A DNA stretch of 34,759 nucleotides, taken from contig ONIM01000020.1 in NCBI GenBank assembly GCA_900317885.1, positions 1 through 34,759 on the forward strand, written 5' to 3'. A program made the translations under genes and the position numbers. This document shows, one piece after another, positions 1 through 31,147 of this stretch. The notes under the pieces were generated by a model. The model did no database searches, was not told the DNA's origin, and worked only from the letters and a program-made list of their open reading frames with translations. Origin of the DNA: an uncultured Bacteroidales bacterium. Lineage in GTDB: Bacteria; Bacteroidota; Bacteroidia; Bacteroidales; Paludibacteraceae. How positions within the stretch are numbered: position 1 is the stretch's first letter; each line of letters opens with the position of its first letter.

Positions 1-516
1 ATCTAATCCCACAATCGGGATATTCCTCTCCAGCGCCACGGATTCGAAGAAGTTCTCCATCGATTTTTGCTCGTCGTACCCCAACCATTGCTTCATCAAT
101 TCCGTCCGAAACATCTCCGTCAAGTACGAAGGTTTCATCCGGCATAACTGATCCAAACCCATGCCTATATTGATGCGAAGGGCGTTGTCGATATATGTAT
201 ATTCCTTTTCGCTATAGAAATTCGTCAGTTTGACTAAATCGGGCAAGAGGGCAGCTTTGCGCAAAGCGGCGATGGCTTCGTAGTCCTGCATGGCAAATTC
301 CGTAACCACTTTGTTGCACCGCGAGAAGCACTTGAAGACGTTCGGAATGGTGTCTATGAATTGCATCTCTACGTACCGGTTGGTAGCTAAGACGTAGGAC
401 TTGGACCGGGTGCCTTTGCCGCTGATTTCATAGAGCACCTGCGCCTGTAAGGGAGTATAAATCGCTGTGCTGCAGGAGCCAAGGATAAGAAATACTATGT
501 ATCTAAAAGTTCTCAA
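1..516 (-). CDS. TraB/GumN family protein, C-terminus cut by the window edge
   Basis: The minus strand reads open from 516 to the edge, giving 172 codons. The product begins with a hydrophobic signal segment (MRTFRYIVFLILGSC...) and has a likely cleavage site at LQA|QVLYE. It then reads LYEISGKGTRSKSYVLATN, the opening strand of TraB/GumN proteins, followed by IPNVFKCFSRCNKVVTEF and a helical region ending ESVALERNIPIVGLD. A cysteine after ILGS might instead be a lipobox. An in-frame stop at 520-522 leaves TTG at 516 as the earliest start and no in-frame ATG was seen near it, so the start is uncommon. It follows the TPR gene by 7 bp and is probably the last visible gene of the minus operon. 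The molecular role of the family is poorly defined in bacteria; an exported, possibly hydrolase-like protein is likely. Confidence 0.8.
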   Translation of the reverse strand, partial: MRTFRYIVFLILGSCSTAIYTPLQAQVLYEISGKGTRSKSYVLATNRYVEMQFIDTIPNVFKCFSRCNKVVTEFAMQDYEAIAALRKAALLPDLVKLTNFYSEKEYTYIDNALRINIGMGLDQLCRMKPSYLTEMFRTELMKQWLGYDEQKSMENFFESVALERNIPIVGLD

Positions 517-523
517 TTGTCAA

Positions 524-7135: not shown

Positions 7136-8713
7136 TTATTTACGATTTACTAACTCTTTTGCCGTCTTGAGTGCCGATTCGCTTACTTCGTTTCCGCTCA
7201 GCATTGTGGCTATCTCTTGTATCCGTTCGTCCTCGTTGAGACGGCTGATATGCGTCTCGGTACGTTGTGCCGTGTCGGCTTTATAGACCTTATAATGGTT
7301 CTCACCCAAGGCGGCTATCTGCGGCAGATGGGTGATGGCGATGATCTGTCGGCTTTTCGCCATCTCCCGCATGATAGACGCCATCTGGGTGGCGATATTA
7401 CCGCTCACGCCGGTATCTATCTCGTCGAAGATGATGGTCGGCAGCCCTTTTGTATTGGCTATCAGCGCTTTGACGCACAGCATCAGTCGGCTGATCTCAC
7501 CGCCGGACGCCACCTCGCTCACGGCCCTCAGACTCTGATTGAGATTCGCGGCAAACATCAGTTGCACCTCGTCGCAGCCTTTTGGCGTGAAGTCTTCTGT
7601 CTTCGTGATCGGAATCTCCACTTTGGCGTGCGTCACGCCCAAGCGTTGCAATCCTTCCTCCAGGCTCTTGCATATCTGCGGCACGACAGCTTTGCGGCTT
7701 TTCGTCAGCGTCTCTCCGGCTTGCTGAAGAGCTTTGCGCTCTTTCTCCGCCTCTTTCTTGGCTTGCTCGATATCGAAATCGAAACTGTCCATCCGCTCGA
7801 CCTGTTGCGCCAACGTATCGCGCTCTTGGATCAGCTCCTCAATCGTCTCTACACCGAATTTCTGCAGTAACTCATGCAAGGCTCCGATACGCTCTTCAAC
7901 CCATTCCAGACGTCTCGGATCGCGTTCGATGCGATTCAGTTTGCGTTCCGCCTCTTCAGCTATGTCTTGTATCTCGATCCGAGCACTCTCAATCCGTTCC
8001 TGCAAATCTGCTGCCGCCTCGTCTAACCGACAAGCCCGCAAGACCTCTATCGCACTTCCTTGCTCTCCGTTGAGTGCCTCAATTGCCGTCTGCAAAGCCA
8101 TCTGGATCTCCTCCGCATGGCTCAACTGGTACTGCTCTTGTTCCAACTCCTCCAACTCGCCTTCCTGCAGTTCCGCGTCGCTCAACAACTTATACCGATA
8201 TTGAATATAATCCGCGTCTTGACGGCTCTTGCGGGCCAGTTCTTGCAATTTATGCAATTGTTCCTGAGCCGCCATAAACCGCTCATACTGAGTACTATAG
8301 GTTTCTAAAATCGCCTCATTGGCAGCAATCGCATCGACTACCTCCAGCTGAAAATCCGCGTTCTCTATCAGCAGATTCGCGTGCTGCGAGTGGATATCTA
8401 TCAGCCTGTTAGCCAGTGCCTTCAGTTCCTGCAACGTCACTACGCTGTCGTCCACAAACGACCTACTTTTGCCGTTGGCATATAGCTCCCGGCGGATGAT
8501 ACTGTCATCAAACTCCGCCTCGATGATACATTTGTCCTCACCGTCTGTGATGGCTTTACTGTCTGCCCGGGCACCCAACACCAGAGCAAGAGCACCTAAA
8601 ATGATACTCTTTCCGGCACCTGTCTCTCCGGTCAAAACCGAGAATCCCTCGCTGAAATCGATGTCCAGATGGCTGATCAGCGCATAGTTTTGTATGTGTA
8701 AATGCTTTAGCAT
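7136..8713 (-). CDS. recN: RecN, SMC-like DNA double-strand-break repair protein
   Basis: A 525-aa protein with an N-terminal ABC half (MLKHLHIQNYALI..., Walker A GETGAGKS at 29-36) and a long Glu/Gln-rich coiled coil across about residues 140-350. The C-terminal half carries the signature ASGGEISRLML, Walker B TIIFDEIDTGVSG and a switch His (ITHLPQIAA). The length is slightly below the usual 550 or so because the coiled coil is compact. Nothing is missing. It is preceded by a tandem-repeat spacer and followed by rarA. Confidence 0.96.
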   Translation of the reverse strand: MLKHLHIQNYALISHLDIDFSEGFSVLTGETGAGKSIILGALALVLGARADSKAITDGEDKCIIEAEFDDSIIRRELYANGKSRSFVDDSVVTLQELKALANRLIDIHSQHANLLIENADFQLEVVDAIAANEAILETYSTQYERFMAAQEQLHKLQELARKSRQDADYIQYRYKLLSDAELQEGELEELEQEQYQLSHAEEIQMALQTAIEALNGEQGSAIEVLRACRLDEAAADLQERIESARIEIQDIAEEAERKLNRIERDPRRLEWVEERIGALHELLQKFGVETIEELIQERDTLAQQVERMDSFDFDIEQAKKEAEKERKALQQAGETLTKSRKAVVPQICKSLEEGLQRLGVTHAKVEIPITKTEDFTPKGCDEVQLMFAANLNQSLRAVSEVASGGEISRLMLCVKALIANTKGLPTIIFDEIDTGVSGNIATQMASIMREMAKSRQIIAITHLPQIAALGENHYKVYKADTAQRTETHISRLNEDERIQEIATMLSGNEVSESALKTAKELVNRK

Positions 8714-8750
8714 CCTCTAATCCACTAATCCTCTAATCCCTAATCCCTTA
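8711..8750 (-). repeat. GGATTAG-type tandem spacer between DUF4835 and recN
   Basis: The gap is built almost entirely of GGATTA words. On the minus strand they read GGGATTA twice, then GAGGATTA, GTGGATTA and GAGGATG, with period 7 then 8. It begins in the TAA stop of the DUF4835 gene and ends in the recN ATG. Confidence 0.85.
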
Positions 8751-9668
8751 ATTCTCATTCATCCGGTCATACGTATTCTGCCGCGTCGGGTCGATATCTA
8801 CCAACAAATCATACACCTCTTTCTTTTCTTTGTCTGTGCCTTTCTTGAAGATATCTACCAACTCATCGGCCTTGGCATCCAGAAACGTATTGATGACGTA
8901 CGTCGCCGGCCGTGCCCGATAGGCTTCTTTCAGTACCGGTATGCCTTCTGCAATACGGGCTCTGCCGTTCGTCACATTACCGCTCATCTCATCCAGACCG
9001 AGCCTGTGATACTCGTAGTAATAGTTCCGGTATTTCTTAAACGCCTCGTCTAACAGATTGTTAATCAACGCATAGCGGTTTCTGTTGCTGTCAAAAGCCA
9101 GCCATCCTTTCTGCTCCGAGTTATCCATACTTGCGCTCTGGCATGCATTCACAATATCCTCGCATTGCTCGAAGTACGGCGTGCCTCCCAAGCGCTGGTA
9201 ACTGTCCATATCATGCCCGATAATCAGATAGCAGTAGTACGCCAACATCGCGGTCAAGTTTGTCGTGAACTGGTTCTGCTGGTACTCAATACGGTCAAAC
9301 TCCTGGTACGTGAAATTGAAATTACGGTCCACGAAATTGAGGAGCGGGGTAGTGTATGTAGTGCCGTAAACCGGACGGCGGCTTTGCAGCGTCATCTCGC
9401 ATTTATATAGGTTATCCGCAGCCTCCTTGACAACCAGCATCATACTGCATTCAATCTTCTCTTGTTCCGCAAAGGTCATATTCGTCCATCGGTTCTGGTT
9501 CATGTACTCCTCGATGGCGGATTTCAGGGTCTCATATACCTGTTTGTTCGAACCCTCTATCTGGTCGGAATTGACGGTTACGGTACAGTTAATCTCCTGC
9601 GCACGAATCGATGCAATCCCGACGAGACTTACGAGAAATAGGGCTATAAATCTAAAATTTGAAATCAT
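8748..9668 (-). CDS. DUF4835 family exported protein (PorD-like)
   Basis: A 306-aa protein with a signal peptide (MISNFRFIALFLVSLVGIASIRAQ|EINC) and the DUF4835 pattern: EINCTVTVNSDQIEGSNKQVYETLKS near the N-terminus, a central NFVDRNFNFTYQEFDRIEYQ segment, and a GHDMDSYQRLGG stretch. The family is confined to Bacteroidota and commonly lies beside recN, as here. I recall it being listed in some databases as type IX secretion protein PorD; I treat that name as tentative. PorE and a CHU_C-domain protein elsewhere in the window make a T9SS setting plausible. Its first eight codons lie inside a heptamer tract. Confidence 0.85.
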   Translation of the reverse strand: MISNFRFIALFLVSLVGIASIRAQEINCTVTVNSDQIEGSNKQVYETLKSAIEEYMNQNRWTNMTFAEQEKIECSMMLVVKEAADNLYKCEMTLQSRRPVYGTTYTTPLLNFVDRNFNFTYQEFDRIEYQQNQFTTNLTAMLAYYCYLIIGHDMDSYQRLGGTPYFEQCEDIVNACQSASMDNSEQKGWLAFDSNRNRYALINNLLDEAFKKYRNYYYEYHRLGLDEMSGNVTNGRARIAEGIPVLKEAYRARPATYVINTFLDAKADELVDIFKKGTDKEKKEVYDLLVDIDPTRQNTYDRMNEN

Positions 9669-9679
9669 AAATCTGAAAT
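9645..9679 (-). repeat. Five ATTTnnn heptamers spanning the DUF4835 start codon
   Basis: On the minus strand five exact 7-bp units each start with ATTT: ATTTCAG, ATTTATG, ATTTCAA, ATTTTAG and ATTTATA. They begin at the DUF4831 stop, include the ATG of the DUF4835 gene (9666-9668), and continue into its coding region. Confidence 0.9.
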
Positions 9680-10738: not shown

Positions 10739-10769
10739 TATCTTTAAATCCTTAAACGTTCAACATTCA
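10739..10769 (-). repeat. Heptamer-period spacer between aroE and DUF4831
   Basis: On the minus strand the gap reads GTTGAAT, GTTGAAC, GTTTAAG and GATTTAA, four related heptamers. They start in the aroE stop codon and end just before the DUF4831 ATG at 10737. Confidence 0.7.
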
Positions 10770-11483
10770 ACTTTCCCATATCTTCCATGCCGCTTTGGCT
10801 TGCCCGTACAGCATCTCCATGCCGTTTTGGATAGTAGCTCCTTGTGCTCGGCCTTTCTGCAGGAACAACGTCACTTCGGGGTTATACACGCAGTCAAACA
10901 GCAAATGGCGTGCCGAAATCATTTCATATGGGATTTCAGGATACGTGTCCTCCTCCGGCGCCATACCTAATGGCGTACAATTAACAATCACTGTTTGTTC
11001 CTTCATTACTTCCGCCGTCAGATCCTCATAGCTCAACATCCCGTCTCTCGGCGTGCGACTGACGAGAGTGGGGGTGACACCTAATGTGCGCAAGCCATAA
11101 CAGACCGCTTTTGATGCGCCTCCTGTGCCTAATACCAAGGCTTTCTTGTCACTCTCGCGCAGCAACGGACGGATGGACTCGATAAATCCCATGCAATCGG
11201 TGTTATAACCTACACGCTTGTGAATCACATTCACCGCCCCGACGGCTTTTGCCGTCTCGTCCAACCTGTCCAGATACGGGATGATTGCCTGTTTGTACGG
11301 CATGGTGACATTCATACCATCCAGAGTATCCAAAAGACTTTCGACTTTCGACTTTAGACTTTCTTCTTGTATCGGATACAAACTATACTCCGCATCGATC
11401 TGCTCACGCTCGAACTTCTCGTTGAAATACTTAGCCGAGAAGGAGTGAATCAGCGGAAATCCTATGATACCAAAGTGACGCAT
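10767..11483 (-). CDS. aroE: Shikimate dehydrogenase
   Basis: A 238-aa NADP-dependent enzyme reducing 3-dehydroshikimate to shikimate in aromatic amino acid synthesis. The shikimate site is visible in HSFSAKYFNEKF and MNVTMPYKQAI (catalytic Lys), and NTDCMGF supplies the Asp. The nucleotide site is GTGGASKAV, and the C-terminal GMEMLYGQAKAAWKIW is typical. It is at the short end of the family. An in-frame tract of four heptamers (11336-11363) encodes ESLKSKVESLL in a surface loop after the first strand pair. The gene starts 22 bp inside the end of tilS. Confidence 0.95.
   Translation of the reverse strand: MRHFGIIGFPLIHSFSAKYFNEKFEREQIDAEYSLYPIQEESLKSKVESLLDTLDGMNVTMPYKQAIIPYLDRLDETAKAVGAVNVIHKRVGYNTDCMGFIESIRPLLRESDKKALVLGTGGASKAVCYGLRTLGVTPTLVSRTPRDGMLSYEDLTAEVMKEQTVIVNCTPLGMAPEEDTYPEIPYEMISARHLLFDCVYNPEVTLFLQKGRAQGATIQNGMEMLYGQAKAAWKIWES
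11336..11363 (-). repeat. Four tandem heptamers inside aroE
   Basis: On the plus strand GACTTTC, GACTTTC, GACTTTA and GACTTTC follow directly on one another within the aroE coding region. Because 7 is not a multiple of 3, gain or loss of one unit would break the frame. Confidence 0.9.
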
Positions 11484-12343: not shown

Positions 12344-13240
12344 TTACAAACTATCCAAATCAACCAACTTATTTACAATCGCATAGATCGTCAGCCCCGC
12401 GGTGGAGTGGATATTCAGTTTGCGGGTAATGTTCTTTCGGTGCGAGATGACCGTGTGCGTCGAGATACAGAGTACATCGGCTATCTCTTTGTTGCTCAGC
12501 CCTTTCACAACCTGAATCAGTACATCTTTTTCTCGGTCGCTCAGTTCTTCACTCTCGATGGCTTGTGAATCGGTTTTGACTTTCCGCTTGCCGTTTTTCG
12601 CGCGCTCCAATGCCGGCCTGAGAATCTCATCTTCAATCGCACAATGGTCCGCAAAATCCTGCTCGGTATGCCATAGATCGCTCATTACTCCGACTAAGGG
12701 GTAGCGCACATGGATATGCTGGCTCTCGTCCGAAGTGGTCTGTGTGTCGTCCTTCGGAAAATACTTGATAATCAACTCTTTGATCTCACTCAGCTTACCT
12801 GTGATTCGCTCGTCGTCATGCTCGTGTTCCTCGTATAATCCTGCGTTCTCGTGTTCGATATGCGTGCGGATCTCCTGTACAAACTCGTCGTAGCATCGCA
12901 AGATTAGCATCGGAATCTGGCTCTTCGGATTTGCCGGATTGATGGCTTCTATCAATGCCAGACGAAGCCGCGGAAGACGAAACTCCAGAAAATAGGTATG
13001 GGCATGGTGTAAATATCGCTGCAGAGTATCCAAATCAATCTCTGCCGGTAACGCACGATGGCGGTATAACTTGAAATTGACAACCGTCAGGAAGGTTGGA
13101 GTATGTACGCCGTGCTCTACACAGACATCCTCGATACTCTTGTCTCCCACACCCACATTCAGCCCGAAACGGCTGATGATCTGGATGGCTTCTTCTTCGT
13201 GCGCCATGAGGTCGCACATCTTGTCTTGCGCTTTATACAT
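12344..13240 (-). CDS. RIC/hemerythrin-like domain fused to LuxR-type DNA-binding domain
   Basis: Residues about 15-60 (IISRFGLNVGVGDKSIEDVCVEHGVHTPTF) resemble the ScdA/RIC N-terminal domain, but the usual Cys pair is replaced by GVGD. Residues 70-210 form a hemerythrin-like helical bundle with candidate iron ligands H81, H127 with E131, H191, and H199 with E203. Residues 233-298 are a GerE/LuxR helix-turn-helix (LSDREKDVLIQVVKGLSNKEIADVLCISTHTVISHRKNI). RIC proteins such as YtfE hold a di-iron centre and respond to nitric oxide and oxidative damage. The inference is a one-component transcription factor sensing NO, O2 or peroxide through iron. No response-regulator receiver domain is present. 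It overlaps ettA by 8 bp and abuts tilS. Confidence 0.85.
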   Translation of the reverse strand: MYKAQDKMCDLMAHEEEAIQIISRFGLNVGVGDKSIEDVCVEHGVHTPTFLTVVNFKLYRHRALPAEIDLDTLQRYLHHAHTYFLEFRLPRLRLALIEAINPANPKSQIPMLILRCYDEFVQEIRTHIEHENAGLYEEHEHDDERITGKLSEIKELIIKYFPKDDTQTTSDESQHIHVRYPLVGVMSDLWHTEQDFADHCAIEDEILRPALERAKNGKRKVKTDSQAIESEELSDREKDVLIQVVKGLSNKEIADVLCISTHTVISHRKNITRKLNIHSTAGLTIYAIVNKLVDLDSL

Positions 13241-14912
13241 TGCCTAATCCTCTATATTTAACGCGGTGAGGCTGAACGGCTTCTTCGCCTAACCGCATCT
13301 TCTTGTTCTCTTCGTATTCCGAATAACTCCCCTCGAACCAGAATACCTTACTATCGCCCTCGTACGCCAATATATGCGTGCAAATACGATCTAAGAACCA
13401 TCTGTCGTGCGAGATTACCACCGCACAGCCGGCGAAGTTCTCTAATCCTTCCTCCAACGCCCGCAAGGTATTGACATCAATATCGTTCGTCGGCTCGTCT
13501 AACAGCAGTACATTTGCTTCGCTCTTCAGCGTCAAAGCCAGATGCAGCCTATTGCGCTCTCCGCCGGAGAGCACGCCGCATTTCTTCTCCTGGTCTGCGC
13601 CGGTGAAGTTAAAACGACTCAGATACGCACGAGCGTTAATTTCCTTCCCGCCCACGCGGATGAACTCCGTGCCACCGCTGATGGTTTCAAAAACCGACTT
13701 ATTCGGATCGATATCCGTGTGTTGCTGATCCACATAACCGATCTTCACCGTCTCGCCTACGGAGAACGTACCCTTGTCAGCTTTCTCCGTGCCGATAATC
13801 ATGCGGAAGAGGGTCGTTTTTCCCGCTCCGTTCGGACCAATGACTCCTACAATGCCGTTAGGTGGCAACGTGAAGTTCATGTCTTCAAACAGCACTCTGT
13901 CTCCAAAAGACTTGGCTACACCTTCTGCGTTGATAACCTTATTGCCCAAACGCGGACCATTCGGAATGAAGATCTCCAACTTCTCTTCGCGCTCTTTCTG
14001 CTCCTCGTTCAACATTCGGTCGTACGCATCCAGACGTGCTTTCTGCTTGGCGTGACGCGCTTTCGGAGCCATGTGAATCCACTCCAACTCGCGTTCCAAA
14101 GTCTTGCGACGTTTTGAGGCTTGTTTCTCTTCCTGCGCCATTCGGTTGGTCTTTTGCTCCAACCACGACGAGTAATTGCCCTTCCAGGGAATTCCTTCTC
14201 CGCGGTCCAACTCCAAGATCCAACCAGCCACATGATCCAGGAAATAGCGGTCGTGCGTGATACAGATCACCGTTCCGGCGTATTGTTGCAGGTGTTGCTC
14301 CAACCAATCGATGGACTCCGCGTCCAGATGGTTCGTCGGCTCGTCTAAGAGCAGTACATCCGGTTGTTGCAACAACAGACGACACAACGCCACGCGTCTT
14401 CTTTCTCCTCCGGAGAGGGTAGTGACACTCGCGTCATCCGGCGGGCAACGAAGAGCATCCATCGCGCGGTCGAGTTTCTGGTCGATATTCCAGGCGTCCG
14501 CAGCATCTAATTTATCCTGCAACTCTGCCTGTCTTGCCAGTAACTTGTCGAAGTCTGCATCCGGTTCAGCAAAAGCCGCGTTGATCTCATCGTACTCCTT
14601 GAGCATGTCCATAATCGGCTGTACACCTTCCTGTACCACCTCGCGGACGGTCTTGGATGCGTCCAACTTTGGGTCCTGCTCCAGGTATCCGACCGAGTAT
14701 CCCGGACTCCATACAACCTCGCCCTGGTACTCTTTCTCAATACCGGCGATGATCTTGAGCAAGGTACTCTTACCTGCGCCGTTCAGACCGATAATACCGA
14801 TCTTTGCGCCGTAAAAGAAACTCAAATAGATGTTGTTCAACACTCGTTTTTGTGGACCGAAATTCTTACTCAGTCCCACCATCGAAAAAATTATCTTCTT
14901 ATCGTCTGCCAT
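13233..14912 (-). CDS. ettA: EttA, energy-dependent translational throttle (ABC-F)
   Basis: A 559-aa protein with two ABC domains and no membrane part. The first Walker A is GLNGAGKST (42-50), with signature LSGGERRR and Walker B VLLLDEPTNHLD. The second has GPNGAGKTT, LSGGERNR and VLLLDEPTNDID. Between them is the ABC-F linker (WIHMAPKARHAKQKARLDAY), and an arm segment typical of EttA is present. Family members bind the ribosomal E site and gate entry into elongation according to the ATP/ADP ratio. A five-unit heptamer tract leads into its ATG. Confidence 0.96.
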   Translation of the reverse strand: MADDKKIIFSMVGLSKNFGPQKRVLNNIYLSFFYGAKIGIIGLNGAGKSTLLKIIAGIEKEYQGEVVWSPGYSVGYLEQDPKLDASKTVREVVQEGVQPIMDMLKEYDEINAAFAEPDADFDKLLARQAELQDKLDAADAWNIDQKLDRAMDALRCPPDDASVTTLSGGERRRVALCRLLLQQPDVLLLDEPTNHLDAESIDWLEQHLQQYAGTVICITHDRYFLDHVAGWILELDRGEGIPWKGNYSSWLEQKTNRMAQEEKQASKRRKTLERELEWIHMAPKARHAKQKARLDAYDRMLNEEQKEREEKLEIFIPNGPRLGNKVINAEGVAKSFGDRVLFEDMNFTLPPNGIVGVIGPNGAGKTTLFRMIIGTEKADKGTFSVGETVKIGYVDQQHTDIDPNKSVFETISGGTEFIRVGGKEINARAYLSRFNFTGADQEKKCGVLSGGERNRLHLALTLKSEANVLLLDEPTNDIDVNTLRALEEGLENFAGCAVVISHDRWFLDRICTHILAYEGDSKVFWFEGSYSEYEENKKMRLGEEAVQPHRVKYRGLGNV

Positions 14913-14944
14913 AAATCATAAATTACAAATCATAAATCATAAAT
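14910..14944 (-). repeat. Five-unit heptamer tract between tex and ettA
   Basis: On the plus strand five heptamers occur in a row: CATAAAT, CATAAAT, TACAAAT, CATAAAT and CATAAAT. They fill the whole junction from the end of tex (stop at 14937-14939) to the ettA ATG (14910-14912). Three further ATG triplets, besides the ettA start, arise from the units in the coding direction. Confidence 0.95.
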
Positions 14945-17033
14945 GCCGAAGGCTCAATTGTATTCTTCCTCTCGCGCGATCGACATCGACCACACGCACT
15001 TTTACGTGCTGATGCAGTTTGACTACTTCCTGCGGGTTGCTGATTCGTCGGTCTGCCATCTCGGAGATGTGTATCAATCCGTCCTTATGCACGCCTAAGT
15101 CCACGAATGCGCCAAAAGCGCTGATATTCGTCACAATACCCGGCAACACCATGCCTGCTTGCAGATCATCGATCGTGTGCACGTGTTCGTCGAAATGGAA
15201 CTCCTCTGTCTCGCCACGCGGGTCACGACCCGGTTGCGCCAACTCCTTCATAATATCCGTGAGGGTGGGCATGCCCACTTCGGCTGTCACATATTTGCTC
15301 AGATCCACTTGCTCGCGCAACTCTTTCTTGGCAATCAAGTCCGCCACCGAGCATTTATGATCTTTTGCCATCTTCTCTACAATGCCGTAACTCTCCGGGT
15401 GTACTGCGCTGTTATCCAACGGATTAGCACCTTTCAGACGCAAGAATCCTGCAGCTTGTTCATAAGTCTTAGCACCTAATTTCGGCACTTTCAGCAACTC
15501 TTTACGGCTTCCAAAAGCGCCATGTTCCGCGCGGTAATCCACAATATTCTGCGCTAACATCGGTCCTAAACCGGAGATATACGTCAAGAGGTGTTTGCTG
15601 GCGGTATTGACATCTACACCCACATAGTTCACCACGCTTTCTACCGTTTGTTGCAAGCTCTCGCGCAACTCCGTCTGATCGACGTCATGCTGGTATTGCC
15701 CCACGCCGATAGACTTCGGCTCGATCTTCACCAACTCTGCGAGCGGGTCTATCAACCGCCTTCCTATACTTACGGCTCCACGTACGGTCACATCCTCATC
15801 GGGAAACTCCTCCCGCGCAGTCTTGCTGGCGCTATATACCGATGCCCCGGCTTCACTGACTACGAATATCTGAGGAACACTTAGTCCCTTGATACTTAGT
15901 CCCTTTGTCACTTCTCGTGCCATCTGCTCCGTCTCCCGACTCGCGGTACCGTTACCGATAGCAATCGCCTCAATCTTATATTTCTCGATCAACTCCTGCA
16001 ATTTCTGCGTGCTTTGCAGGTTATGCAGATAGATGACGTCATGCATCAATAGATCGCCTTGTTCATTGAGTACTACAGTCTTGCACCCCGTTCGAAATCC
16101 CGGATCGAGTGCCAACACGCGTTTCTGACCCAATGGAGCACCTAATAATAGTTGCCTCAGGTTCTCCGCAAAGACCCGAATCGCCTCTTCGTCCGCTTTC
16201 TCTTTCGAGAGCGCCGCAAACTCCGTCTCGATAGCCGGTTTCAGAAGCCGTTTATAACCGTCCTCCATCGCCAACTCCACTTGATAAGCGGTGTCGTTAT
16301 TGGCCCGTAGCCACAAGTGTGCTAACTTATCTAAGGCTTTCTCCGTGTCCGGCGAGATGTCCACCCGCAGGTATCCTTCCGTTTCTGCACGGCGAATCGC
16401 CAATAACTGATGGCTCTTCACATGTTTGAGCGGACACTTGAAATCGAAGTAATCTTTATAGTTCTGCGCTTCCGGTGTGTCACACTTGGTCTTTACCGCC
16501 TTGCTACTCAATATTGCAGTATAACTGAACTCTCGGCGAATGGCGTTACGGCTCTTTTCGTCTTCGGCTATCCGCTGGGCAATAATATCCCGTGCGCCTT
16601 GCAGGTCCTCCTCCTTGGGCATCTTCATCGGCCGCTGTTTGAGAATCTCTTCTGCCAGCGGAAGCAGTCCTTTCTCGATGGCTACATCGGCACGGGTCTT
16701 TCGATGCGGTTTGTAGGGTAGGTATATATCCTCTAACTCCGTCGCGTCCCAACATTCTTCAATGCGCTTGCGCAGTTCCTGATCGTCGTTTCCGAGTTCA
16801 TCCAAACGCGCGTATATTGTATCCTTGCGTTTGGCGAGTTCTTGCAGATTGACATATTGCGCTTGGATGGCCGCAATCTGAACCTCGTCCAGACTACCTG
16901 TTTTCTCCTTTCTATATCGCGCGATAAAGGGAATGGTGGCTCCTTCGTTCAATAACGTTACGGTTGCAGCCACTTGCCGCTCGGCAATACCGACAGCTCC
17001 GGAGATAATATGTGAGAACTTATTTTCGTACAT
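14937..17033 (-). CDS. tex: Tex, S1-domain RNA-binding transcription accessory protein
   Basis: A protein of about 698 aa. It opens with the Tex N-terminal segment (VTLLNEGATIPFIARYRKEKTGSLDEVQI), followed by a YqgF-like nuclease fold (RVLALDPGFRTGCKTVVL). A helix-hairpin-helix region comes next (LTYISGLGPMLAQNIVDYR) and the protein ends with an S1 domain (GMVLPGIVTNISAFGAFVDLGVHKDGLIHISEM). The frame extends to a TTG at 17042, but ATG at 17033 (MYENKF) is the better start; it lies inside the last codons of folA. A 15-bp in-frame duplication at 15879-15905 gives KGLSIKGLS in a loop before VVSEAGASVYSAS. Confidence 0.95.
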   Translation of the reverse strand: MYENKFSHIISGAVGIAERQVAATVTLLNEGATIPFIARYRKEKTGSLDEVQIAAIQAQYVNLQELAKRKDTIYARLDELGNDDQELRKRIEECWDATELEDIYLPYKPHRKTRADVAIEKGLLPLAEEILKQRPMKMPKEEDLQGARDIIAQRIAEDEKSRNAIRREFSYTAILSSKAVKTKCDTPEAQNYKDYFDFKCPLKHVKSHQLLAIRRAETEGYLRVDISPDTEKALDKLAHLWLRANNDTAYQVELAMEDGYKRLLKPAIETEFAALSKEKADEEAIRVFAENLRQLLLGAPLGQKRVLALDPGFRTGCKTVVLNEQGDLLMHDVIYLHNLQSTQKLQELIEKYKIEAIAIGNGTASRETEQMAREVTKGLSIKGLSVPQIFVVSEAGASVYSASKTAREEFPDEDVTVRGAVSIGRRLIDPLAELVKIEPKSIGVGQYQHDVDQTELRESLQQTVESVVNYVGVDVNTASKHLLTYISGLGPMLAQNIVDYRAEHGAFGSRKELLKVPKLGAKTYEQAAGFLRLKGANPLDNSAVHPESYGIVEKMAKDHKCSVADLIAKKELREQVDLSKYVTAEVGMPTLTDIMKELAQPGRDPRGETEEFHFDEHVHTIDDLQAGMVLPGIVTNISAFGAFVDLGVHKDGLIHISEMADRRISNPQEVVKLHQHVKVRVVDVDRARGRIQLSLRHL
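15879..15905 (-). repeat. 15-bp in-frame direct repeat inside tex
   Basis: The 12-mer ACTTAGTCCCTT occurs twice, at 15879-15890 and 15894-15905, separated by GAT. It encodes KGLS twice. The spacing of 15 bp keeps the frame. Confidence 0.85.
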
Positions 17034-17508
17034 ACTCCGCAAACGTGTAATCGTACGGGTTCTTCTCGTCCGCTTCGTGTCTTTCAGCGCTTGTTTGTCG
17101 CCAGATAGCCGGATCGATTACAGGGAAGAACGTATCTGCGTCCTCCCAACTATGATGAATATGCGTGATATAGAGTTTGTCCGCGCGCTCCATCATCTGG
17201 CGATAGACCATGCCTCCGCCAATAACAAAAGCCTCTTCTTCGCCTTTGACCTTAGCCTCCATCTCGTCCAAGGAATAAACGGCTTCTGCGCCATCAAAGC
17301 TCTTGCCCTGTACGTCCGTCAGAACGATATTCCGCCTGTTGGGCAGGGGATGTTTGGGCAGCGAGAAGAAGGTTCTTTCGCCCATCATTACGGTCTTACC
17401 GGACGTGATCTCCTTAAAATGCTTCAGGTCCGCCGGCAGGTGGCACAACAGATCACCTTTCTTTCCGATCGCATAGTTCTCTGCGACAGCTACTATAATC
17501 GAAATCAT
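17020..17508 (-). CDS. folA: Dihydrofolate reductase
   Basis: A 162-aa enzyme reducing dihydrofolate to tetrahydrofolate with NADPH. It begins [35 protein letters not shown] (substrate site), followed by [13 protein letters not shown] and [13 protein letters not shown] (NADPH site). The pairing with thyA is functional because ThyA oxidises methylene-THF to DHF, which FolA recycles. The start overlaps the thyA stop (ATGA) and the end overlaps tex by 14 bp. Confidence 0.97.
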
Positions 17509-20356: not shown

Positions 20357-21687
20357 TCCAAGCTGTGTACTACAAGTCCGCTGCGCAGTTTGGGTTCAAA
20401 CCACGTTGTTTTCGGCGGCATAATGTTTCCGCTGTCGGCGATGTCGATGATCTGCTGCATGGTAACGGGATAGAGTGCCAATGCCATCTTCATCTCGCCG
20501 CTATCCACACGTTTCTTCAGCTCACCAAGTCCACGGATTCCGCCCACGAAATCAATACGTTTGTCGCTCCGGAGGTCTTTGATGCCGAGAATCTTATCCA
20601 AAATCAGGTTACTGGAGATTGTTACGTCCAGTACGCCGATCGGATCTGCATTATTATAGCGACCTTCTTTGGCAGTCAACGAGTACCACTTTCCGCCCAG
20701 ATACAAGCTGAAATTATGCAATCCCTTAGGCTTTACTGCAGAGAAATCTTCCTTCCCTTCAGGGAGGGGCTGGGGGTAGGCTTTGATTTCGAAATCCTCT
20801 TTCAACTTCTCGATAAACTCCGCTTCGCTCAGTCCGTTCAGGTCCTTCACCACGCGGTTGTAATCAATAATATTCAGCTGGTCATCCGGGAAGCACACCG
20901 CCATAAAGAACTCATACTCCGGGATCTCCCCTCCTTTACGGAGGGGTTGGGGGAGGCTTTTCCTTTCTGCGCCGACTCCGGCAGCTGCCGCCGAGCGATG
21001 ATGTCCGTCCGCAATATACATCGCCGGAATCTGAGCAAAAATCTCCGTGATACGCGCGATGGTCTGCTTGTCGTTAATCACCCAGAACGTGTGGCGGAAA
21101 CCTTCCGGAGCCGCTACAAAATCATACTCCGGCTCGCCCTTCGTCACTTCCGCTACAATCTTATCCAAGTCCTCGCGATGGGGATAAGCAAAGAACACAG
21201 GCTCCATGTTTGCGTTCAAAACGCGCACATGTTTCATTCGGTCTTCCTCTTTGTCCTTACGCGTCAACTCGTGCTTCTTAATGCGTCCCTCCAGGTAATC
21301 ATCTACCCACGCCCCGACAACCAGACCATACTGCGTCTTCGCTTTCTCACCTGCCAAAGCCGCTCCGGTAGCGTTCTCCAGACCTTCGCCTTTAGCCAAA
21401 ATCGTTTGCGCATAGACGTAGTATTTCTCCTCCTGGTCCTGCACAAGCCATCCTTTCTTTTTGAACAGCTTAAACTGCTCAACTGCCGCTCCATACACAC
21501 GCTCGTCGTGCTCATCCGTTTCCGGTGCAAAATTGATCTCGGGTTTGATGATGTGGTATAGCGATTTCTCGTTACCTGCCGCTTCCGCACGTGCTTCTTC
21601 ACTATTGAGCACGTCGTACGGACGGCTACTTACTTGCTCCACCAACTCTTTTGGCGGACGTATTCCTCGAAATGGTTTAATCTTCAT
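20353..21687 (-). CDS. DUF1015 domain protein carrying two palindromic-element insertions
   Basis: A 444-aa protein that starts MKIKPFRGIRPPKELVEQVSSRPYDVL, has YIADGHHRSAAA in the centre, and ends with the DUF1015 pattern ALYPVTMQQIIDIADSGNIMPPKTTWFEPKLRSGL. The family is HTH/kinase-like in some annotations, but I know of no proven function. In Bacteroidales it is often found near serC and serA, which here are on the other strand about 6 kb away. Two in-frame segments, SLPQPLRKGGE and AYPQPLPEGKE, are encoded by copies of a GC-rich palindromic repeat and look like additions to the fold. Confidence 0.88.
   Translation of the reverse strand: MKIKPFRGIRPPKELVEQVSSRPYDVLNSEEARAEAAGNEKSLYHIIKPEINFAPETDEHDERVYGAAVEQFKLFKKKGWLVQDQEEKYYVYAQTILAKGEGLENATGAALAGEKAKTQYGLVVGAWVDDYLEGRIKKHELTRKDKEEDRMKHVRVLNANMEPVFFAYPHREDLDKIVAEVTKGEPEYDFVAAPEGFRHTFWVINDKQTIARITEIFAQIPAMYIADGHHRSAAAAGVGAERKSLPQPLRKGGEIPEYEFFMAVCFPDDQLNIIDYNRVVKDLNGLSEAEFIEKLKEDFEIKAYPQPLPEGKEDFSAVKPKGLHNFSLYLGGKWYSLTAKEGRYNNADPIGVLDVTISSNLILDKILGIKDLRSDKRIDFVGGIRGLGELKKRVDSGEMKMALALYPVTMQQIIDIADSGNIMPPKTTWFEPKLRSGLVVHSLE
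20751..20784 (-). repeat. GC-rich palindromic element, copy A, in frame in the DUF1015 gene
   Basis: On the plus strand CCTTCCCT and AGGGAGGG form imperfect arms around TC, followed by a G-run tail ending in TAGGCTTT. On the coding strand it encodes AYPQPLPEGKE. Confidence 0.85.
20926..20961 (-). repeat. GC-rich palindromic element, copy B, in frame in the DUF1015 gene
   Basis: On the plus strand the perfect arms CCCCTCC and GGAGGGG flank TTTAC, followed by a G-run tail ending in GAGGCTTTT. It encodes SLPQPLRKGGE, in the same frame as copy A. Confidence 0.9.
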
Positions 21688-22955: not shown

Positions 22956-23069
22956 GCCCGCGCGCGTTTTCTTTAAATTTTTTATGAAAATCCCTTCCTA
23001 ACCTGCCGCACACTCTACACCTCCTTTTTCTACCCAAAACAACACCATTAACTACCCCTAACAAGACTC

Positions 23070-23113
23070 TCACCATAGGATCACCATAAGATGACCATAG
23101 GATCACCATAGGA
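23070..23113. repeat. Four perfectly spaced 11-bp tandem repeats
   Basis: Units are TCACCATAGGA (23070-23080), TCACCATAAGA (23081-23091), TGACCATAGGA (23092-23102) and TCACCATAGGA (23103-23113). An 11-bp period puts each unit on nearly the same face of the helix, as in iterons or cooperative regulator sites. A partial unit (ACACCATTAAC) lies just upstream. Confidence 0.95.
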
Positions 23114-23276
23114 TGAATGACCCATTTTGTCATTTATGCCATTTTACTATATATACATAGTATATATACTTTTTATTCGTCATCTTTCAAAAATAGGACT
23201 CATTTTATCTCCTGATCCCCTTTTCTAACCACCTCTTTTTATTGCAAAAAAATGAGAAAAATCACGAAAATGATGG

Positions 23277-24159: not shown

Positions 24160-25959
24160 GCTGCTTGCTATAGTACTCCTGTGCGCACTGAGCATTTCTG
24201 CCCAGCGCATCCCACGGAGATATATGACTTCATCGAGGAACTGACGACAGATGGAGTGATCTCTTCGAATGCGGCGGTCAAGCCTTATACGCGGGATGCG
24301 ATTGCCCGGATGTTAGCCGAGGCGCAGAGCAAAGACTCGTTGCTGAACAAAAGGCAGAAAGACGACCTGCAGTTTTACATGCAGGACTACGCGCTGGAGC
24401 TGGATACTCTCCCTGTTTATTATTCGTACGGGCACAGGCATGTGACGCAATGGATCACGCCGGTATCGAATCTGTCGCTGGCGGACCCGAGTCTGCATAT
24501 CCTGACGAAGAACAAGATCTTCAAGATGCGAATCCGTCCGATATTAGGCATGGATATCTATGCCGGCAAGAAAGGTATGATCACCAAGCGCTGGTACGGA
24601 GCGGAGATCCAGATGGATATCGCGCATCATTTGTCAATCTGGGGCTCTATCCGTGATAACAGTTGGAAAGGAACCGGGTATCTGAAGGATGCTTATTTTC
24701 CGACAGAATACGATAAGATTTACGGCGCAAGGCTGACGAAGCCCGGCTACCTGAATAACTTGCCGGGTGTGCAATACAAGGAGTCTAATTACGGAGGCGA
24801 CTTCTCGGATTCGAGAGGCGGTATATCGCTTTATGCGTGGTGGGGTAGTATCGGAGTGCAGCGTGAGCGGATCCAATGGGGCGATGCGCAACACGCGTCG
24901 AATATCCTCTCTGCGCACAATCCTGCGGTACCGATGGTGACGCTGCAGTTGACGCCGTGCAAATGGTTTCAGTTCGATTATTTCCATGCGTGGCTGCCAT
25001 CGAATGTGATGGACTCGACGTATTATTACTCGGAGCGCGAGCGCGAAGGCGTGACGCAGCGTGAATACCGGCCTGCCAACAAATTCATGGCAGCGAACAT
25101 GTTTACGTTCATGCCGATTAAATATATTCAGTTCTCCATCGGAAACTCGATTGTTTATGCGGAAAGGAATGTGCAGGCTGCATATTTCATCCCGATAGCG
25201 TTCTTCAAATCGCTGGATCATCTGATGACCAAAGGCTTGGGCTCGGAGAATCAGAACAGCCAGGCCTTTGCGACCATCACCGTGCGCCCGACAGACCATT
25301 TGCGGTTGTACGGTTCGTTCTTCCTGGATGAGTTTAAGTTTGCCCGTTTGAAGAAATCCAACCCCGAACACAACCCTGTATCTTATCTGGTGGGCTTTAA
25401 TTGGAGCGGTTGGCCGGTAAAAGGTCTGTCGCTTCGCGGGGAGTTTATGCGAAGCTATATTGCTTGCTATACGCATTCGATTGCGGTACTGGATTACACG
25501 TCCAACTCCTATAAGATGGGGCACTATATGGGCGATAACTCTCAATCGATATTTGTAGAGTTGGCATATCGTCCGGTTCGTGGATTGAGGCTGGTTCTGA
25601 ATTATACGAATGACACAAAATATAATTCGTATGATTATATTCGCAAAAATATCGGAGCGATTATTGCCCAGAAACCGTTTGCAGAGAAGATCTGGCGGAA
25701 TGACGAGATCAATTTCCGGGCGGTGTATGAGGTATTCAATAACTGCTATGCACATGTGGACTTTAGTTATAATAACACGCGCGCGTACGCTCCGAAGTCA
25801 GCCCGTGTAGCCGGAGAAGACCGCGGATGGAATGCCGATGGCACTTCTCAGGAGTTGAGCGGCGATGCACTTGTGAACTATTATTTGAACAAATATACCC
25901 CCGTTTATCTGCAAGGCAAGAATTTTACGGTGACTTGTGGATTGAGCTTTGGATTTTAA
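24149..25959 (+). CDS. Wzi-like outer-membrane beta-barrel protein with apparent frameshift near codon 21
   Basis: The ATG at 24149, inside the end of ompH, encodes a clear signal peptide (MRSKLLAIVLLCALSISAQ) but that frame loses the protein after RIP. The mature protein continues in another frame as TEIYDFIEELTTDGVISSNAAVKPYTRD. One extra base in the run at 24211-24213 (CCC) would join them as SAQRIPTEIYDFIEEL, giving about 603 aa. The body has Wzi-family features: WGSIGVQRERIQWGD, a long aromatic-rich barrel (FDYFHAWLPSNVMDS, ENQNSQAFATITVRP) and a terminal Phe (CGLSFGF) typical of barrel insertion. Wzi anchors capsule polysaccharide at the surface. Without the extra base the longest frame starts at GTG 24181 and lacks a signal peptide. 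Confidence 0.8.
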
Positions 25960-25967
25960 CGGAATAA

Positions 25968-25991
25968 CGTAATATCGAAATATCGAAAACA
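25968..25991 (+). repeat. Octamer-period spacer before the oadA-like gene
   Basis: CGTAATAT, CGAAATAT and CGAAAACA occur in tandem in the 40-bp gap, 9 bp before the ATG. The words match those across the TPR gene start. Confidence 0.75.
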
Positions 25992-25999
25992 ATCATTAT

Positions 26000-27673
26000 A
26001 TGAAAAAAGAAATTCAATTCTCCCTTGTCTATCGCGACATGTGGCAGAGTAGTGGAAAGTACGTGCCGCGTAGAGACCAGTTGGCGAAGATAGCGCCGGT
26101 GATTATCGATATGGGCTGTTTTGACCGTGTTGAGACCAACGGCGGTGCGAGTGAACAAGTGAACCTGTTGTACGGCGAGAACCCGAACTTAGCGGTTCGT
26201 ACGTTCTGCAAGCCGTTCAACGAGGCAGGAATCAAGACCCACATGCTGGATCGCGGTCTGAACGCATTGCGCATGAATCCTGTGCCGGCTGATGTGCGTC
26301 AGTTGATGTACAAAGTGAAGCACGCGCAGGGAACGGATATTACCCGAATCTTCTGCGGTCTGAACGATCCGCGCAATATTATTCCGTCTATCAAATGGGC
26401 GAAAGAGGCCGGTATGACTGCGCAGGCTACGATGTGTATCACCTATTCGAAAGTGCACACGGCGGAGTATTATATCAACCTCGCGGAGCAGCTGATCGAA
26501 GGCGGCGCACAGGAGCTCTGCCTCAAAGACATGGCAGGTATCGGTCGTCCGGCTATGCTCGGAACGATTGTAGCAGCGATCAAAGAGAAACATCCGGATA
26601 TCATCATTCAATACCACGGACATACAGGTCCGGGCTTTAGTGTAGCGTCGATGTTAGAGGTGGCGAAAGCCGGCGGCGATGTGTTGGACGTAGCGATGGA
26701 ACCGCTCTCTTGGGGTAAAGTACACCCGGATGTGATTACCATTCAGGCGATGCTCAAAGACGCAGGCTTCCTGGTAAAAGACATCAATATGAAGGCCTAT
26801 ATGGAGGCGCGCAGTCTGACGCAGTCCTTCATCGATGATTTCCTCGGTTACTGGATTGATCCGAAGAACGCGTTGATGACTTCGCTGCTTGTGGGATGCG
26901 GTCTGCCGGGAGGTATGATGGGTTCGCTGATGGCGGATCTCAAAGGTATGCACGCAGCTATCAACGCCAACCTCAAGAAGAAAGGCGAGAAAGAGTTGAG
27001 CGAGGATGAGTTGCTGGTACAACTCTTCGATGAGGTACAACGCATCTGGCCGATGCTCGGTACGCCGTGCTTGGTAACGCCGTTCAGCCAGTATGTGAAG
27101 AACGCTGCGCTGATGAACCTCTTCAGCCGCTCGATGGGCGAGAAAGACTTTACGAGAATGGATCCCGCTATGTGGGGTATGATTTTGGGTAAGAGCGGTA
27201 AGTTGCCGGGCAAGTTAGCGCCTGAGATCATCGAACTCGCCAAAGAGAAAGGCTTCGAGTTCTATACTGATGATCCGCAGAAACTCTATCCGAACGTCCT
27301 GCCGCAGTACATCCAAGAGATGAAAGAACTCGGCTGGGATAGGGGACAAAACGACGAGGAGTTGTTTGAGTTCGCTATGCACGACAAACAATACCGCGAG
27401 TTCAAGTCCGGCATCGCCAAAGAGCAGTTCAACAAGGATCTGGCAGAAAGGATGCAGAAGGCCGGTAAAGAAGTACCGGAGAACCTGCGGAAATACCTGG
27501 CTAAGGGACAAAGTGACCAAGTACCAAGTACCAAGGGAGCTTCCGAGGATGAGATGGCAGCCGTAGCGATGGCGTTGCATCTGGCGCAAGGTAAGCAGCA
27601 TAAAGAGGGAATTATCGAGTTGCCGAACGTACATTCGACCGCTTGGAATAATAAGTATTATACGCTTAAATAA
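26000..27673 (+). CDS. Oxaloacetate decarboxylase alpha/pyruvate carboxylase subunit B-like carboxyltransferase
   Basis: A 557-aa TIM-barrel carboxyltransferase. RDMWQSSGKYVPRRDQL (12-28) corresponds to the metal-site region, K176 in LCLKDMAGIGRP is the carboxylated lysine, and H206/H208 in YHGHTGPGF bind metal. GLPGGMMGSLMADL and TPFSQYVKNAALMN match the PYC/OadA conserved domain. No biotinyl domain (no MKM site) is present, so a separate biotin carrier would be required. After about residue 485 a Gln/Ser/Pro linker is followed by EDEMAAVAMALHLAQGKQHKEGIIELP and STAWNNKYY, a tail resembling the soluble end of OadG-type subunits. The likely role is oxaloacetate/pyruvate interconversion, perhaps Na+-coupled. 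Confidence 0.85.
   Translation: MKKEIQFSLVYRDMWQSSGKYVPRRDQLAKIAPVIIDMGCFDRVETNGGASEQVNLLYGENPNLAVRTFCKPFNEAGIKTHMLDRGLNALRMNPVPADVRQLMYKVKHAQGTDITRIFCGLNDPRNIIPSIKWAKEAGMTAQATMCITYSKVHTAEYYINLAEQLIEGGAQELCLKDMAGIGRPAMLGTIVAAIKEKHPDIIIQYHGHTGPGFSVASMLEVAKAGGDVLDVAMEPLSWGKVHPDVITIQAMLKDAGFLVKDINMKAYMEARSLTQSFIDDFLGYWIDPKNALMTSLLVGCGLPGGMMGSLMADLKGMHAAINANLKKKGEKELSEDELLVQLFDEVQRIWPMLGTPCLVTPFSQYVKNAALMNLFSRSMGEKDFTRMDPAMWGMILGKSGKLPGKLAPEIIELAKEKGFEFYTDDPQKLYPNVLPQYIQEMKELGWDRGQNDEELFEFAMHDKQYREFKSGIAKEQFNKDLAERMQKAGKEVPENLRKYLAKGQSDQVPSTKGASEDEMAAVAMALHLAQGKQHKEGIIELPNVHSTAWNNKYYTLK
27514..27534 (+). repeat. Three tandem heptamers in the oadA-like linker
   Basis: TGACCAA, GTACCAA and GTACCAA encode part of the linker (GQSDQVPSTKG) between the catalytic body and the C-terminal tail. 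A loss or gain of one unit would shift the frame. Confidence 0.85.
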
Positions 27674-31095: not shown

Positions 31096-31109
31096 TATTA
31101 ACTTCGGTA

Positions 31110-31141
31110 TATCGACAGACCGATATATCGACATATCGAAA
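31110..31141 (+). repeat. Four tandem octamers before dcp
   Basis: TATCGACA, GACCGATA, TATCGACA and TATCGAAA occur in tandem and end 6 bp before the dcp ATG at 31148. They share the ATATCGA word with the TPR and oadA-like junctions. Confidence 0.8.
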
Positions 31142-31147
31142 TTATCA

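Follow-up and report, generated by a model that had tools for sequence, protein, structure and literature searches.

Short heptamer arrays with many words turn over rapidly at gene junctions and in protein loops of Paludibacteraceae

Our results show that tandem tracts with a period of 7 bp, and less often of 8 bp, form a large and fast-changing stock of short arrays built from many different words. We consider it likely that such arrays are copied into sites that tolerate them, are resized by slippage, and are filtered by selection. Heptamer repeats between aligned genes are already known from Beggiatoaceae, Xanthomonas, and Nostoc. What is new is the form they take here, with many words, apparent copying, and fast turnover.

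The window, by which we mean the whole stretch of 34,759 nucleotides analyzed here, comes from an uncultured bacterium of the Paludibacteraceae. The records closest to it are draft assemblies of Bacteroidales and Paludibacteraceae, many of ruminant origin, and nearly all sequences that we compared are draft metagenome assemblies. In the main alignments the window is about 89% identical to its relatives L059 and L060.

Arrays in the window

Three features make up the tex–ettA junction:

13233..14912, minus strand: ettA-like gene for an ABC-F ATPase, the downstream gene (Pfam ABC_tran in two stretches, ABC_tran_Xtn)
14910..14945, minus strand: GATTTAT array of five units, from lag-7 matches, with the tex stop codon inside it and the ettA start codon as its end
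14937..17042, minus strand: tex, the upstream gene, whose open reading frame ends within the array (Pfam Tex_N, Tex_YqgF, S1)

At 14910–14944, 24 of 28 comparisons match at lag 7. None of 20,000 letter shuffles was as high, and the junction is indeed made of five 7-bp units, as the initial annotation had it. Further tracts in the window are:

510..523, minus strand: two AATTGA(C/G) units only
8711..8752, minus strand: GGATTAG(T/A/G) array of period 8 that fills a two-gene junction, from lag-8 matches
9648..9679, minus strand: weak junction array, AAATCTG-like with 72% matches, that reaches into the first codons of the gene downstream
10739..10775, minus strand: short GTTGAAT/GTTGAAC/GTTTAAG array at a junction, from lag-7 matches
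11334..11363, minus strand: GTCGAAA array in aroE, codons 41–51, frame kept
23069..23117, strand unassigned: 11-bp array, a 49-bp stretch that is identical at L035:76
25957..25989, plus strand: octamer array at a junction
27511..27537, plus strand: AAGTACC array in a carboxylase-type gene, codons 505–513
31109..31142, plus strand: octamer array at a junction

Three of these had been described before. The tract at 8711–8750, given a period of 7–8, is tandem with a period of 8 (23 of 32 matches, 0 of 20,000 shuffles), but its lag-7 signal is weak (shuffle fraction 0.04). The GTTGAAT-like tract at 10739–10769 does carry a period-7 signal, although a weaker one (14 of 24 matches, fraction 0.004). 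The two AATTGAC/AATTGAG units at 510–523 are there (6 of 7 matches, fraction 0.00075), and no more than two. The shuffle fractions of all four tracts are uncorrected for the tracts having been picked beforehand. In L059 and L060 some of these tracts look different: the 8711 array lacks 15 bp in L059 and 23 bp in L060, the 9648..9679 array is 14 bp longer in both, and L060 has a GATTAGTG-type array at the junction of 10739..10775.

Abundance

We sampled the window's genome (G000) in 20 stretches of 20 kb, which together with the window amount to 434,759 bases. Its 208 spacers contain 20 lag-7 tracts, against 0.37 in 30 dinucleotide shuffles, and 14 lag-8 tracts, against 0.30. The rise is smaller at lags 10, 11, and 14 (6, 8, and 6 tracts); there is little at lag 6 (3 versus 0.43) and none at lag 5 (0 versus 0.53). 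Comparison with composition-matched shuffled spacers was a test that the initial annotation had set for such tracts, and the phenomenon as a whole came through it. The idea that chance, or the base composition of AT-rich spacers, produces the tracts is already refuted by these counts and by their dependence on the lag, and we give it practically no credence. In coding sequence of the same sample, 32 tracts were found at lag 7, five at lag 6, and two at lag 8. With 7-bp units in tandem above chance, and with unit numbers that vary among relatives, the arrays are heptanucleotide simple sequence repeats.

The rate of lag-7 arrays is 29 per 100 kb pooled over 20 records of the genus and 12 in G000. 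Five more genomes give between 5 and 16 each, and the GTCGAAA pattern discussed below is absent from four of them. The same scan gives 5.6 per 100 kb in more distant loci. One record of the comparison (L067) has no lag-7 arrays at all, and the genome G011 has only four, with more at lag 8. In G011 (L140–L142) octamer arrays outnumber heptamer arrays by 16 to 5 per 100 kb; they include long GATGAGGA-type and CTCCTCAA-type runs, and 5 of the 13 octamer rows form one cluster on L142.

Position and word content

Positions were analyzed in 1.24 Mb pooled from up to 26 species; some of these genomes may coincide with other records, and genes were called with an in-house script rather than a published gene finder. 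The counts are not fully independent, since 20 loci from the ettA region are homologous. Among 290 arrays of period 7 or 8, 133 lie in codirectional spacers, 111 in coding regions, 12 in divergent and 4 in convergent spacers, and 30 at ends. Short spacers (15–80 nt) hold an array in 82 of 263 codirectional cases and in 1 of 17 convergent or divergent ones (Fisher's exact test, p = 0.027), which bears out the earlier claim of a pile-up at stop-to-start junctions. Per junction, the rates for codirectional (115/764), divergent (10/62), and convergent pairs (4/60) are not significantly different (p = 0.85 and 0.086). Junction arrays are denser per base than the tolerance of free DNA alone predicts.

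The claim that the position is always the same has to be given up. Coding regions contain 32 of the 52 lag-7 tracts of the G000 sample, and in long codirectional spacers the arrays show no pull toward the start codon (median distance 77 nt versus 72 nt for a uniform placement, 44 arrays). Of the arrays in codirectional spacers, 69 of 133 do lie within 10 nt of a start codon, many of those spacers being short.

The words themselves differ by site. Stop codons occur in 59 of 66 arrays in short codirectional spacers and in 23 of 94 coding arrays; that junction words carry stops had been noted correctly. Stop-rich words at junctions and stop-poor words in coding regions are what one would expect if selection sorts words by site. 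On the sense strand, arrays at short junctions contain 3% C and 18% G, those in long spacers 11% C and 9% G. We set aside a bias in orientation (G over C) as general evidence, since it is strong (44:8) in the 20 homologous ettA loci but weak elsewhere (21:10, p = 0.07).

Turnover

The tex–ettA junction illustrates how quickly arrays change. The array has five units in the window, seven in L059, and six in L060; it is absent in L061 and L062, and L068, L070, L071, and L072 carry other words at this junction. In several species the gene upstream of ettA is a different one. Of L063 and L065, which are 95.6% identical, one has a 42-bp array right at the start codon of ettA and the other has none. 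Directly ahead of the array their bases differ as well, and recombination with a relative may be involved.

The same is seen more widely. Thirteen conserved codirectional junctions in 21 sequences make 273 combinations, of which 192 were readable; the other 81 were dropped because the genes were not adjacent or the BLAST ends were too short. Under a laxer array threshold (11 of 14) without a shuffle control, 103 of the readable junctions have a gap of less than 10 nt and no array, 53 have an array, and 36 have another spacer. The 53 arrays use 43 junction-distinct words, and two of the 13 junctions have no array in any of the 21 and 18 sequences read. Judging from these alignments, a site that has an array in one species is empty or filled with a different word in related species, and the unit number differs between sister species. 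That unit numbers change by slippage, as had been proposed, agrees with the five, seven, and six units at tex–ettA and with exact 7-bp indels between L061 and L062, where three of four indels (7, 7, and 20 bp) lie inside arrays. Local expansion seems to occur too: in L068/L071 an array has seemingly grown from a local seed, ATTGACGATT.

Arrays inside proteins

In the G000 sample 28 genes bear arrays. Ten of them were scanned with Pfam, and among the proteins recognized are RecF-like and Radical-SAM proteins, DXS, shikimate dehydrogenase, and an IleRS-like tRNA synthetase of class I. The AroE loop, which holds a GTCGAAA array in the window, contains GTCGAAA, GATTGAA, ATTGGAA, AATGGAC, or no array depending on the species, and is mostly 26–27 and up to 35 codons long. 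Two loops of DXS were compared in 24 sequences (the partial matches L191 and L192 were left out, and G004 gave no match). Loop 1 holds six clear heptamer arrays with differing words. Loop 2 holds GTCGAAA-type, GATATCG-type, or GAGAGG-type arrays or another repeat in six sequences, and is a short loop of 69 nt in eight. Arrays in both proteins were named by eye. These loops behave like the junctions, with differing words or no array between species.

Dispersed words and identical copies

The tracts had been judged not to be a dispersed repeat family because their words differ. This judgment was wrong: in the window's genome the tex–ettA word GATTTAT has 91 matches with at most three mismatches, against five for the reversed control, and other words recur too. 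Overlapping matches within one array are counted separately here and in the GTCGAAA counts below. For AATTAAA and GTTGAAA the reversed control is uninformative because these words read nearly alike backward, and no claim is based on that comparison.

The 54 lag-7 arrays of the G000 sample use 31 consensus words, of which GTCGAAA accounts for 10 arrays. This word occurs in species-specific bursts. Among 41 genomes scanned, G000 has 58 matches, five sister genomes have 89 (G007), 46, 39, 25, and 19, and seven genomes have one to three; there are none in 12 of 25 genomes of the genus and none in 16 genomes of other families. Of 120 genomes drawn from the family, 5, the window's included, contain an exact match to the pattern. 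Words other than GTCGAAA are distributed differently among genomes. Within species, 99 pairs of arrays share a word, against 41 after permutation (maximum 79 in 2,000). With GTCGAAA left out and pairs more than 2 kb apart counted, a weak excess remains (44 versus 27, maximum 51 in 300).

Evidence for copying comes from irregular units. A GH3 gene on L009 and a Mur-ligase gene on L013 have in common 36 identical bp of the GATTTAT family, variant units among them; the flanks differ, and both genes read the stretch as DKSQIINHKSQ. At further unlinked loci, two genes on L045 have an identical irregular array of 30 bp, L044 and L050 one of 26 bp, and L035 and L044 one of 24 bp; a regular array of 32 bp has the same ends in L040 and L050. 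The same arrays, irregular units included, recur at unlinked sites of one genome.

A variant of the GTCGAAA array end points in the same direction. After two GTCGAAA units, at places where a C follows, the next letter in G000 is T in 19, A in 14, and C in 1 of 34 cases, and in five sisters T in 40, A in 5, and C in 17 of 62. For A versus C the difference is pronounced (Fisher's exact test, p = 2.9e-5), in a test made after the pattern had been noticed and with sisters picked for their GTCGAAA bursts. The variant predominates in G000, where it is found at 14 loci, and not in the five sisters. Amplification of an end variant within one lineage favors copying, which predicts it, over independent slippage, which does not. 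Among 30 GTCGAAA loci fetched, 21 are distinct and 13 of these end in AAAGAC; the flanks share no more than control sequence does.

The ends of neighboring genes were considered as a source of the words as well. The ends of upstream genes are rejected in this role, with 4.24 shared bases versus 4.22 after permutation (42 arrays). The ends of downstream genes show a small excess (5.14 versus 4.69, with 4 of 42 sharing at least 8 bases versus 1.1 expected), most of which, judged by eye, is continuing array sequence.

Discussion

We propose that ready-made arrays, mostly of three to six units, would be copied into new sites and would survive where the sequence is free, that is, at codirectional gene junctions and in variable protein loops. 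Replication slippage would then add or remove units. Selection would sort the words, so that stop-rich ones are kept at junctions and stop-poor ones in coding regions. At a junction, the upstream gene may take a new stop codon from the array, as tex does. Several points count against this reading: the 88.8% complete genome of the window offers no good match to a copying machinery, the same-word excess is weak without GTCGAAA and for pairs more than 2 kb apart, the array in L068/L071 seems to be a local expansion, the L063/L065 difference may be due to recombination, and the per-base density at junctions is higher than tolerance alone predicts. A stronger version is conceivable, although we lean against it, in which the arrays are minimal mobile DNA: heptamer runs of 25–40 bp with defined ends (e.g., AGTC...GAAAGAC) would be copied into junctions and loops, and each lineage would amplify its own words, so that loops in essential enzymes and operon spacing would be rewritten routinely.

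Could the arrays arise in place, by local slippage with a favored step of about 7 nt and no copying between loci? Unit-number changes, exact 7-bp indels, and the expansion around a local seed in L068/L071 fit this idea. In-place slippage has been proposed for heptamer repeats in general, and most of the repeat-rich genomes in the survey of Mrazek 2007 (as cited in PMC4679880 and PMC4692102) have heptamers as their commonest long simple repeats. Local slippage would not easily give identical irregular arrays in unrelated genes, an end variant predominant in one genome at 14 loci, or species-specific bursts of words, and the words share no more with the upstream gene end than permuted ones do. 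The identical copies and the end variant in particular speak against slippage as the sole process, which we regard as rather unlikely. Quite unlikely, in our view, is that the arrays are the cargo or the ends of mobile elements moved by a transposase, in the manner of REP/RAYT systems, or by a reverse transcriptase. The shared ends of the GTCGAAA family, and the fact that slots with arrays also receive palindromic elements, would suit such a mechanism. On the other hand, neither a reverse transcriptase nor a Y1 transposase has a good match as the obvious machine in the burst-carrying G000. In this genome, which is 88.8% complete, RVT_1 has no match, and Y1_Tnp has a single weak one, just over the cut-off and with an internal stop; RVT_1 matches are present in four sister genomes (G002, G008, G012, and G015). 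Longer shared flanks are lacking, and there are many different words, though one would be expected for a transposase.

The phylum Bacteroidetes is reported not to use Shine-Dalgarno sequences. The initial annotation had suggested that selection keeps the tracts as unstructured sites for initiation or recoupling in such a lineage. The concentration at short codirectional junctions, the C-poor sense strand that long spacers do not share, and the stop codons in most junction words all suit this suggestion. Array starts also have the lowest upstream GC content (0.24) and are somewhat less structured than starts with gaps of less than 10 nt (folding –3.49 versus –4.27, p = 0.036 uncorrected). Their folding does not differ from array-free short junctions (–4.02, p = 0.94) or from long spacers (p = 0.21), and A at position –3 is not raised (0.38 versus 0.45), a positive determinant in Flavobacterium johnsoniae according to the accessible text of PMC6847099. 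In the same text, extra AUGs near starts tend to be avoided in Bacteroidetes. The tex–ettA array supplies two of them within 21 nt of ettA, with T at –3, which counts against a role in initiation. To this can be added the missing pull toward starts in long spacers, a strand skew not significant outside the homologous ettA loci, per-junction rates that do not differ by orientation, the many orthologous junctions without an array, and the 111 of 290 arrays inside proteins, where initiation is irrelevant. Hence, a dedicated role in initiation is not supported and seems unlikely to us; a weak effect, or an effect at single sites, is possible.

How do the arrays, copied and sorted as we propose, compare with known systems? 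The STRR heptamers of heterocystous cyanobacteria are heptanucleotide tandem repeats with a few fixed words, and we know of no occurrence of them in protein loops. Rickettsia palindromic elements, and small mobile sequences found within genes, are short repeats placed in frame in unrelated proteins, but they are palindromic and longer. The arrays described here are likewise inserted in frame in unrelated proteins. REP/RAYT systems combine a palindromic unit with a Y1 transposase; here the arrays are tandem, and the Y1_Tnp match of G000 is the weak one with a stop.

Close in form are the TAACTGA repeats found in Beggiatoaceae, some cyanobacteria, and five Bacteroidetes (MacGregor 2015, PMC4679880). 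According to the accessible part of that paper, they lie mostly within several nucleotides ahead of start codons, a placement that our arrays may share. They resemble our arrays in their tandem 7-bp units, their stops in every frame, and their overlap with the upstream stop; some sets lie inside open reading frames, and possible mobility and a translational role are discussed. As far as that text goes, TAACTGA is one word and similar heptamers are rarely repeated, whereas our arrays use many words per genome, with species-specific bursts, identical irregular copies, and in-frame use in housekeeping enzymes. No rotation of TAACTGA is found among the 31 consensus words of the G000 sample, and one array of this class (AACTGAT) is found in L125, a Paludibacter record. 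The GGGNATC repeats of Xanthomonas and Nostoc (Rehm 2015, PMC4692102) also lie preferentially between aligned open reading frames near starts and stops and vary in unit number. The accessible text describes a single G-rich type that forms quadruplexes and is under-represented in coding regions, and it mentions three heptanucleotides of Calothrix. Our arrays are varied, mostly AT-rich at junctions, and present in coding regions as well; judged by their composition (78% A+T, 16% G), the 88 lag-7 codirectional arrays lack the G-tracts for quadruplexes. Our literature search, with most subscription journals outside its coverage, found no description of such heptamer arrays in Bacteroidetes or Bacteroidales.

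If our reading is right, short tandem repeats in these genomes do more than stutter locally: copies of them spread through the genome, and this continually remodels operon spacing and the variable loops of enzymes, DXS and AroE among them. The arrays would then be a natural way to gain in-frame insertions, and a model for how patches of 30 bases of bacterial DNA can be copied without a known transposase. A warning would follow as well: "spacer" sequence and odd peptide loops in such genomes may be repeat insertions rather than functional signals.

Other repeats at the same sites

Heptamers and octamers are accompanied by other repeats. Tandem arrays of 11 bp are a further class; the irregular 49-bp stretch at 23069–23117 is partly common to L047:4673. 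At two junctions, a few species have perfect inverted repeats that extend across the upstream stop codon (L071:14369, L072:15281, L078:14352, and L078:15302). Hairpins over the stop codon, by template switching, were considered as an origin of the arrays. At 83 array junctions arms of at least 7 occur four times, versus 1.8 expected by permutation, and arms of at least 9 three times, versus 0.23. We rejected hairpins as a general mechanism because array-free junctions show a like excess.

Slots with arrays can hold palindromic elements instead. At about position 3245 of L068/L071, two species that are 95% identical fill one protein loop differently, the first with a heptamer array and the second with a palindromic repeat. 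The dispersed palindromic element CTCCCTTCCCTTCAGGGAGGGGCTGGGGGTAGG occurs at 20751–20783 of the window, inside a DUF1015 gene, and at L038:11705, L045:17334, and L036:16550; in the corresponding region of the DUF1015 gene, L059 has an octamer array. A short dispersed TCTGTCAGCGAAGCGGTCTGTCAG-like repeat fills junctions at L031:18089, L036:16212, L038:11875, and L045:11629, and is also found in loop 2 of DXS in L168 and L171.
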